The notes under the pieces are model-generated. The model was not told the origin of the DNA. It did not search any database and saw nothing but the letters and a program-made list of their open reading frames with translations. 64,000 nt of DNA, taken from positions 62,001 to 126,000 of the forward strand of contig NZ_JAAQPH010000002.1 of NCBI RefSeq assembly GCF_011683915.1, read 5' to 3'. This DNA is from Pelagibius litoralis. Lineage in GTDB: Bacteria > Pseudomonadota > Alphaproteobacteria > Kiloniellales > Kiloniellaceae. The first letter of the stretch is position 1. The number at the start of each line of letters is the position of its first letter. This document shows, one piece after another, positions 2,653 through 10,081 of this stretch. The position numbers were made by a program, and so were the translations under genes.

Positions 2653-2668
2653 TGGCACGGCGGTTGCG
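2653..2668 (+). promoter_or_regulatory. sigma-54 (-24/-12) promoter of the amyloid operon
   Basis: The sequence TGGCACGGCGGTTGCG matches the RpoN consensus TGGCACG-N4-TTGC[AT] at every fixed position except the last degenerate base. The GG and GC cores are at 2654-2655 and 2666-2667 with the required spacing. Transcription would start near 2680, giving a leader of about 160 bases before the ATG at 2838. Sigma-54 promoters need an AAA+ activator, and one is encoded at 8690-10081, which strengthens the call. Confidence 0.85.
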
Positions 2669-2837
2669 TTGTTGGGGCTGGGGTTGCGCGCTTGCGCGGA
2701 CCCCCGGCCGGAAGGTCCCGTAAAGGTCGAGCCCGAGGGGAAGCCAGGGGGTGGAGGTCTGTCGGGGGAGACTTCCGGGGAACGGCGCTTCCAGGGAGGA
2801 AGCAATGAACCGGATAACGCATCAAGAGGAGAAAACC

Positions 2838-8670: not shown

Positions 8671-8703
8671 CTTCGGCCCAAGTAAATCATCAATGGGCCG
8701 AAG
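8671..8703. repeat. 10-bp perfect inverted repeat over the activator stop codon
   Basis: CTTCGGCCCA (8671-8680) and TGGGCCGAAG (8694-8703) are perfect inverted copies around a 13-base loop that contains the stop codon of the activator gene. No T-run follows on either strand. It could be a weak or Rho-assisted terminator for the activator transcript. Confidence 0.4.
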
Positions 8704-10081
8704 GGGTGTTTTCGCAGCGAATGCTGTATTTTTCGATCAACCGGTAAAGTGTCACCCGGGAAACGCCGAGATCCCGCGCCGCCACGGTGATGTTGTGAGA
8801 GTGCTTGCCCAGTGCATCGCGGACCAGAGTCTCTTCGATCCTGGCCTTGGCTTCCTCCAGGGTGGTGCGGTGTCTGGTGCAGGGCTCTTGCGGGTGGCCA
8901 AACAGGCCGACGCCCGTTAGGGGGCCGATATCGATCGATTCCGCCGCTCCGGCGGCGCCGGCCAGGGCGCCAGCATCATCGCGGCTTTGCAGGTCCGGCC
9001 TCTCCACCAGCCCGAGATCCTCAACGGACAGATGGTCATTGTCGGTCATCACAACGGCGCGGCGAAGCTTGCTGATCAGCTCGCGCACGTTCCCGGGCCA
9101 GTGATAGCGTCGCATCGCGGCGATGGCAGCCTCGGAAAGGAAACGCTCGTTGCCGTTGATCTCGGCGGCGAAGGTCTTTGCAAAGAAAGCGCCGAGCAAG
9201 ACGATGTCCTCACCGCGTTCGCGCAGTGGCGGCAACGTCAGCGCCAGGCAGTTCAGGCGATGGAACAGATCTTCGCGAAACTGCTCGTTGACGATCTGCT
9301 TTTGCAGGTCGCGGTTCGTCGCCGCGATGATACGGCAATTCAGTTGCACCGGCTTGTTGCTGCCGACGCGCTCAATGGTCTGTTCCTGGAGAAACCGCAG
9401 AAGATGCGGTTGCAGTTCCAGCGGCATGTCGCCGATCTCGTCGAGGAACAGCGTGCCGCCGTCTGCCGCTTCCAACTTGCCGATTTTACGCTGGTGGGCG
9501 CCGGTGAAGGCGCCTTTCTCGTGGCCGAACAGCTCCGAGGCGATCAGGGAGGCAGGCAGGCCACCACAGTTGATGGCGACAAAGGGGCCGTCGGCGTAGG
9601 GTGAGCGCTCATGAATCGCCTGGGCCGCCAGTTCCTTGCCGGTTCCGCTTTCGCCCTGGATCAGTACCGGCGCCGAGGTCTTGGCGAATCGCCTGATTGT
9701 ATCGAAGACCCTGAGCATGGCAGGGCTTTCGCCGACCATAAAAGGTTCGTCTGTGGTTTTGCCCAGATCTCGGGGTGCCGGTAAATCTTTGCCCGCGCTT
9801 GTTTTGATGTCGAGGGATGAGAGCGTCGGCGCCGGTTTCAGCGCACGCACCAAAGTTGCAAGGCCGGCGTCGCTGCTCCCCAGCTTGACGAGCAAGTCGG
9901 CCAAAGCTTCCTGGCTGCGGCTCATGACCTCGTCATGGGTGAGTTCTCGGCCGATCATCTTGACCGCTCCGAATGCTCCGGCACCATCTCCGCGAACCCC
10001 CTGTCGCTTGAACCAGGACCCAAGCCCCGGTTGCGGATTGCCCAATGGCGGTTTTCTTGTCGAACCTTTTTTGGTCTTCAC
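8690..10081 (-). CDS. sigma-54-dependent transcriptional activator (bacterial enhancer-binding protein)
   Basis: A 463-residue AAA+ activator for RpoN holoenzyme. The central domain shows Walker A GESGTGKE (143-150), the sigma-54 contact loop GAFTGA (190-195), Walker B GTLFLDEIGD (about 209-218), an arginine-finger region and WPGNVREL. A Fis-type helix-turn-helix lies near the C-terminus (NITVAARDLGVSRVTLYRLI). The N-terminal 110 residues are not a receiver or a recognisable GAF/PAS domain, so its input signal is unknown. The listed start is GTG; the ATG at 9958 (residue 42) is an alternative that keeps the AAA+ and HTH domains. It lies directly upstream of the pore gene and near a strong sigma-54 promoter, so it is the likely activator of the amyloid locus. 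Confidence 0.9.
   Translation of the reverse strand: MKTKKGSTRKPPLGNPQPGLGSWFKRQGVRGDGAGAFGAVKMIGRELTHDEVMSRSQEALADLLVKLGSSDAGLATLVRALKPAPTLSSLDIKTSAGKDLPAPRDLGKTTDEPFMVGESPAMLRVFDTIRRFAKTSAPVLIQGESGTGKELAAQAIHERSPYADGPFVAINCGGLPASLIASELFGHEKGAFTGAHQRKIGKLEAADGGTLFLDEIGDMPLELQPHLLRFLQEQTIERVGSNKPVQLNCRIIAATNRDLQKQIVNEQFREDLFHRLNCLALTLPPLRERGEDIVLLGAFFAKTFAAEINGNERFLSEAAIAAMRRYHWPGNVRELISKLRRAVVMTDNDHLSVEDLGLVERPDLQSRDDAGALAGAAGAAESIDIGPLTGVGLFGHPQEPCTRHRTTLEEAKARIEETLVRDALGKHSHNITVAARDLGVSRVTLYRLIEKYSIRCENTPSAH

Follow-up and report, generated by a model that had tools for sequence, protein, structure and literature searches.

Results

Gene content of the locus

The window analyzed here is a 64,000-nucleotide stretch of DNA from the marine alphaproteobacterium Pelagibius litoralis, in which a sequence-only reading had proposed a six-gene locus resembling the Pseudomonas fap system, an exporter of biofilm amyloid fibres. 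The open reading frame (ORF) listing of the window contains all six genes, together with a seventh (2007-2324) that this reading had missed, as it had the leader described below. This seventh gene lies on the forward strand and encodes a small secreted protein of 105 aa that carries a VILWDE motif and a leader-like stretch, VSEHELSQQQAK, at 2133-2168. The FapC-position fibre protein (2838-5150, forward, 770 aa) follows, in which we counted eight modules (NFG..TF..QVINQNNINSGINSAQQGANTVAIA), and then the FapB-position protein (5264-5653, forward, 129 aa), which has one. The start codons of these two genes were chosen by us: the repeat-protein ORF runs from 2751 to 5150, with ATG 2838 behind an AGGAG-type site as its likely start, and the FapB-position ORF runs from 5171 to 5653, with ATG 5264 downstream of GGGAGG. 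The forward-strand genes end with a FapD homologue, a C39 peptidase with a hydrophobic N-terminus (5665-6393), and the FapE-position protein (6406-7065, 219 aa). On the reverse strand lie the FapF homologue, a barrel whose ORF spans 7233-8570 rather than ending at 8543 as first annotated, and a sigma-54 activator with AAA+ and Fis-type HTH domains (8690-10081). Signal peptides were judged by a hydrophobicity rule only, and it is in this sense that the multi-repeat protein is secreted and the peptidase exported, as had been claimed for both. Rfam and tRNA scans of the window were empty.

A LuxR-type response regulator (1050-1793, forward) adjoins the locus and is kept in four related loci (L029, L030, L031 and L071), and a small protein (289-597, forward) is kept in the first three; its Hpt label is a guess. 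Of the three genes in 289-2324, for a possible Hpt protein, the LuxR response regulator and the VILWDE protein, all have relatives in L029-L031 and the last two also in L071, a neighbourhood that hints at a phosphorelay input. The VILWD motif was found in 12 of the 62 loci searched. We set aside the VILWDE gene as a candidate FapA, the likeness being a stretch in Pseudomonas FapA-position proteins seen by eye only.

FapD and FapF homologues

Profile searches with NCBIfam models matched 5665-6393 to FapD (NF058616, E 6.1e-46, 156.5 bits) and 7233-8570 to FapF (NF058560, E 1.4e-53 over 26-442, 182 bits), in both cases below the curated cut-offs (330 and 700, respectively). The FapF match spans the N-terminal region of the window pore; canonical FapF is a trimer whose N-terminus forms a coiled coil in the periplasm. 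The window pore also matched solved FapF (E 4.5e-34). FilB and FilC (NF050078 and NF050079) were the second-best matches, at E 2.6e-34 and 3.3e-23. The catalytic triad is intact in the window FapD, in agreement with the sequence-only reading, and among 60 FapD rows Cys is retained in 59 and His and Asp in all 60. FapC secretion has been reported to require the FapD cysteine (PMC5557850).

The same genome carries a second, divergent FapD-FapF pair on contig C35 (L049, 9046-11238), with a LuxR-type regulator downstream and no leader motif nearby, and a similar pair with a regulator occurs elsewhere in the genus (L082). In two canonical loci (L113 and L115), the FapD C-terminus contains a leader-like DAEL/DSEL stretch that is absent in the window; it is possible that this stretch is a substrate mimic.

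The FapD tree places the window outside canonical Fap, in a sister clade

We compared FapD homologues in a midpoint-rooted tree of 60 rows (59 different), from which three duplicate loci were dropped and loci without a FapD match are absent. Thirty-five rows from 34 loci, including the window, form a window-type clade (99/92), 18 rows form the canonical clade (100/98), and 7 divergent rows stand apart. With this midpoint root, the tree supports a window-type clade that contains the window and is sister to canonical Fap. Alphaproteobacteria belong to this clade, which also includes Cupriavidus, Vibrio, Photobacterium, Polymorphobacter and Croceicoccus plasmid records (L133, L135-L138). The close relatives that could be named are two Pelagibius metagenome-assembled genomes (MAGs) and one Rhodospirillales MAG, in keeping with the assignment of the locus to an alphaproteobacterium.

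We sampled 385 genomes of the class with the window FapF as a query, which favours window-type pores, and found matches (E ≤1e-3) in 23. Wide stretches were covered for 19 of the 23, and a FapD homologue lay in the stretch in 17 of these 19, the exceptions being G071 and G027, whose pore gene has two stop codons. By the FapD tree, window-type loci occur in 10 genomes and canonical-type loci in 3, with G123 counted in both groups; 5 genomes have divergent pairs only. Within the genus, 6 of 8 genomes had a FapF match, five of window type and one of canonical type (G386, locus L070). L070 is a canonical-type operon with matches to FapB (NF058557, E 2e-27), FapC (E 2.4e-22), FapD (E 3.8e-77), FapE (E 3e-25) and FapF (E 8.2e-132), all five below the curated cut-offs. 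With such an operon in the genus of the window, it would be too simple to call the window "the alphaproteobacterial Fap". Elsewhere in the phylum, one genome (L118) has two adjacent canonical fap sets, both of which contain VILWDE, FapB, FapD and FapE genes.

According to a 2013 survey, Fap is restricted to beta-, gamma- and deltaproteobacteria (PMC3792158), while a 2018 review adds 25 genera, as well as FapD-FapF pairs in five further phyla (PMC6173800). On the basis of the open-access PMC text that was searched, it would be unsafe to claim that alphaproteobacterial Fap has never been reported.

The fibre proteins share a module

None of the NCBIfam models for FapB, FapC and FapE matched the window's three other genes up to E 1, and the published Fap repeat (GX4NX3GX6N) occurs 0 times in the window. 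The proposed Fap parts list holds for the FapD and FapF homologues and for the filling of the FapB, FapC and FapE positions, and fails for the FapB, FapC and FapE models and the repeat. In 17 of 17 canonical loci, a single ORF contained two or more copies of the core of the published repeat. Among the 34 window-type loci, this was the case in 3 (L034 and L080, which are Gly-rich, and L078, which is basal), with one match in four more. The small FapB-position protein is a one-repeat homologue of the large one, as the sequence-only reading had it: its single module was recovered by the window repeat HMM at E 8.7e-4, while the best of 200 shuffles reached 0.25.

A FapB module profile built from 16 small proteins outside the genus found a small protein (≤240 aa, E ≤5) in 31 of the 34 window-type loci, usually with a larger, highly variable secreted protein upstream. 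These sister-clade "FapC" proteins vary strongly, being Gly-rich, Asn/Asp/Ser-rich or QQNNG, and proteins with 5 to 12 modules by profile occur in L037, L079, L039 and L134. The repeat protein beside fapD in L037 (13007-19900) is ~2,300 aa long with 12 FapB-type modules by profile. Module number also ranges from 1 to 8 within the genus: L071, which has the same gene order, encodes a FapC (12702-13013) with one module compared with the window's eight.

When applied to the 17 canonical loci, the module profile recovered a FapB/FapC-type ORF in 15, at E 6e-9 to 2, compared with E 5.2 for the first shuffled decoy; L114 and L119 were not reached. Canonical FapB itself was recovered in L070 (6e-9) and in L121 and L120 (2e-4), although the decoy was also beaten by several FapE ORFs (0.003 to 1.3) and by one or two further ORFs. 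Within the genus, the FapB scores were 5e-4 (L031), 3e-3 (L071), 0.3 (window), 0.31 (L030) and 4.3 (L029), such that the window FapB is tied to the canonical module mainly via L031 and L071. Because the sister-clade profile recovers canonical FapB, the fibre module is probably common to both clades by descent, with the window's own link being indirect.

A structure model of the window FapC, built from four sequences, had a pLDDT of 59 and a pTM of 0.62, with much of the repeats at 70-90 and similar strands in every repeat. A Foldseek search with this model gave no significant match, the best being CsgA (E 0.078) and solved FapC (E 1.0 and 3.1). The model is compatible with stacked imperfect repeats and proves nothing.

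A putative double-glycine-like leader in FapE-position and other proteins

The remaining secreted protein was identified with a FapE profile made from 21 window-type FapE proteins from other loci, trimmed after the leader. This profile matched 6406-7065 at E 6e-9, with the first decoy at 0.7; one training row (L128) still contained the leader because its match fell early. Canonical FapE did not rise above decoys with this profile, which thus does not join the two clades. The FapE structure model had a pLDDT of 33.

FapE-position proteins carry a putative leader with the consensus LSxxELxxLRGG, which is similar to the double-glycine leaders that C39 peptidases remove and, aligned on the predicted cut, reads L-12 S-11 E-8 L-7 L-4 R-3 G-2 [GRK]-1. 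The C39 double-glycine consensus has E-8 and L-7, a hydrophobic residue at -4 and G-2 G-1. In the window, the FapE-position leader is VEEEVLEEQRGG at 6655-6690, with a predicted cut after 6690, and a FapB-position leader, NVNEGTLFSERGG, was assigned by eye, with a predicted cut after base 5413. These features suggest that the leader is the FapD cleavage site. A leader regular expression found a site in 43 of 46 loci (29 window-type loci outside the genus and 17 canonical loci), that in L077 at the wrong spot; the expression is descriptive, as a chance match is expected in a good fraction of searches that long. By eye, variants were seen in L077 (ELSGHRAG), L034 and L080 (ELxxLRGT) and L124 (VLATQTGK), and leader-like sites in the FapF of L037, L038, L043, L130 and L133. 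With a stricter regular expression, there was no plausible leader beside the seven divergent FapD-FapF pairs. In FapE, the leader is followed by conserved residues, [FY]...FG...T.

In the FapE-position precursors, the hydrophobic N-terminus also ends in a lipobox-like cysteine (LSGC in L033, 4580-5584; TGAC in the window, 6406-7065), so the leader might be lipid-anchored until it is cut.

In a 2017 study, the FapD target is called unclear and the Fap proteins are described as lacking canonical C39 sequences, with the authors pointing to FapE; in strain UK4, FapE loses its N-terminus (PMC5557850). FapB is reported as unprocessed in UK4. A 2025 review still has it that FapD is "thought to" process part of FapF as well as the N-terminus of FapE (PMC12822426).

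Matrix scoring of the leader

We scored proteins with a leader matrix trained on 13 canonical FapE leaders, taken from 12 loci that lie outside the class, with significance assessed against shuffles. Of the 34 window-type FapE-position proteins, 33 had their best site at the leader and 25 reached p<0.05, the nine without significance being L029, L038, L071, L077, L128, L129, L130, L132 and L133. Since the region had been chosen with a profile of sequences trimmed at the motif, the 13 rows outside the training of that locating profile form the fairer set; 12 of these peaked at the leader and 9 were significant. In another run, 10 of 12 FapE proteins outside training were significant, the exceptions being L071 (0.13) and L077 (0.52). 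The window FapE gave p 0.02-0.024.

FapB-position proteins reached p<0.05 in 26 of 31 rows, which are related and comprise one protein per locus from 31 of the 34 window-type loci; L033, L073 and L078 were dropped because no ORF of ≤240 aa reached profile E 5. The significant sites lay at a plausible leader in 24 cases, in the signal peptide in L126 and off the RGG in the window, where the matrix peaked at VDDSALAAAVGL and the RGG leader is assigned by eye only. L138, L135, L129, L038 and L040 were not significant. The window VILWDE protein, scored on a longer reading from 1956, had a shuffle p of 0.001, and VILWDE proteins were significant in 2 of 6 cases (not in L071, 0.65; L073, 0.31; L077, 0.11; or L074, 0.08). 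Small proteins of L033 (0.85), L073 (0.23) and L138 (0.15) were likewise not significant, and the window controls gave 0.10 for FapC, 0.14 for FapD, 0.11 for FapF and 0.39 for the activator.

The canonical contrast, from which no combined value is drawn, comprised 18 rows, two of them FapE; 5 of the 16 FapB/FapC rows reached p<0.05, at sites other than the proposed leaders, indicating that the false-alarm rate of the matrix there is above nominal. In L070, the matrix gave p 0.0125 for FapB, at a site inside the protein, and 0.042 for FapF, where there is no leader. These results warn that the matrix by itself is not proof of a leader. In a specificity check covering 38 non-training loci, scores ≥12 were obtained for 35 of 1705 ORFs lying no more than 5 kb from fapD and on its strand versus 10 of 3989 other ORFs, two of the ten being FapF (L037 and L081).

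Regulatory sites

An exact match to the sigma-54 -24/-12 promoter (TGGCAC-N5-TTGC) lies upstream of the repeat gene at 2653-2667 on the forward strand, and a sigma-54-like site with 1 mismatch precedes the VILWDE gene at 1918-1932 on the same strand; both have counterparts in L029, L030, L031 and L071. Because the 7 sigma-54-like sites in the whole window are at the chance level (5.8), the case for a promoter comes from the single exact match and from the conservation of its position across the four related loci. Across all loci, the scan gave 115 sites versus ~37 under uniform bases, a comparison without composition control from which no enrichment is inferred.

In P. fluorescens PF07, fap has a -24/-12 promoter that needs RpoN and the adjacent activator BrfA (PMC9207406), which senses c-di-GMP (PMC13101488). 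By analogy, the window activator fits this known pattern. The sequence-only reading had been correct that the pore gene is inverted and that the locus has its own adjoining sigma-54 activator; however, neither is special, because a separated fapF (PMC3792158) and an adjacent RpoN-dependent BrfA (PMC9207406) have already been published.

Discussion

By core homology, the locus is a Fap-type export system, and its fibre proteins and FapD tree mark it as a sister variant. Our preferred reading, to which we give a probability of roughly three in four, is a Fap-type fibre export locus in a sister clade to canonical Fap. In the proposed mechanism, the activator would switch on the fibre operon, Sec would carry the parts into the periplasm, and FapD would cut the double-glycine-like leader carried by the proteins in the FapE and FapB positions and possibly by the VILWDE protein. 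Removal of the leader would license passage through FapF, after which FapB would seed and the eight-module FapC would stack into an amyloid-like surface fibre. A broader reading, which we advance tentatively and at somewhat less than even odds, is that FapD is a free periplasmic double-glycine-leader peptidase cutting LSxxELxxLRG[GRK]; it would mature several sister-clade fibre components, and FapD-FapF would thus be a general two-part export platform with exchangeable fibre proteins.

Instead of being a FapD site, the leader could have a structural role in FapE-like proteins or bind a chaperone. The conserved residues that follow the motif in FapE would fit such a role, canonical FapB has no clear leader and yet the Pseudomonas system works, and the matrix signal falls at other sites in canonical FapB and FapC. 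Nevertheless, the motif recurs outside FapE, in FapB-position proteins, in 2 of 6 VILWDE proteins and in some FapF linkers, it is enriched near fapD, its spacing fits the double-glycine consensus known generally, and by regular expression the 7 divergent FapD-FapF pairs have no plausible leader beside them. We regard a structural or chaperone-binding motif as unlikely, though a serious competitor. We consider it improbable that the same secretion route serves an adhesin or surface-layer protein that is not an amyloid, with the repeat protein being soluble or another polymer. The extreme variation of the sister-clade "FapC" proteins and the fold search without a significant match speak for such a cargo; the module that the window FapB- and FapC-position proteins have in common, the reach of the clade's FapB module to canonical FapB and a model in which every repeat has the same strands, many of them at pLDDT 70-90, speak against it.

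An ordinary canonical Fap operon that has diverged in its fast-evolving fibre genes would make a separate clade unneeded. It would account for Fap models being the best matches of FapF and FapD, for the FapB module reaching canonical FapB, and for an activator and -24/-12 promoter as in P. fluorescens (PMC9207406). In contrast, the midpoint-rooted FapD tree splits the clades (100/98 and 99/92), the repeat core separates them (17/17 versus 3/34, with one match in 4 more), and a canonical-type operon exists in the same genus, making this reading rather improbable. Finally, COG4313 channels structurally resemble FapF (PMC6173800) and the barrel has a weak Pfam Phenol_MetA_deg match (E 3.9e-6), but a COG4313-type hydrophobic-solute channel unrelated to export is very improbable given the far stronger matches to the FapF model (1.4e-53) and solved FapF (4.5e-34) and the linkage of the barrel to FapD and leader-bearing secreted proteins.

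The sister-clade Fap-type locus that we favour resembles Pseudomonas Fap (fapABCDEF) in its FapD and FapF homologues, its FapB/C-like and FapE-position secreted proteins and its predicted sigma-54 control with an adjoining activator. It differs in lacking canonical Fap repeats, in combining an eight-module FapC with a one-module FapB, in the putative leader on the FapB-position protein, and in having a VILWDE gene and an inverted fapF rather than a single fapABCDEF operon; family searches also recognise no FapA in the window, from libraries that may hold no FapA model. The putative pilus system FilB/FilC of Acinetobacter likewise pairs a C39 peptidase with a barrel, but the window matches FapD and FapF more strongly. 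The spacing of the leader is that of double-glycine leaders of C39-containing ABC transporters, whereas Arg is common at -3 in the Fap-type leader and the cut is predicted to be made in the periplasm by free FapD after Sec export. BrfA, to which the window activator is likened by position and domain type, is also a sigma-54-dependent Fis-family protein next to fap, with c-di-GMP sensing reported for it (PMC13101488).

The main new point is the candidate leader as a testable prediction of the FapD site: being common to FapE, FapB-position and other proteins, it offers an exact and mutable candidate. The sister clade would extend Fap-type export to the alphaproteobacteria, beyond the beta-, gamma- and deltaproteobacteria given in the 2013 survey (PMC3792158), and its widely different fibre proteins may serve as natural variants for amyloid studies.
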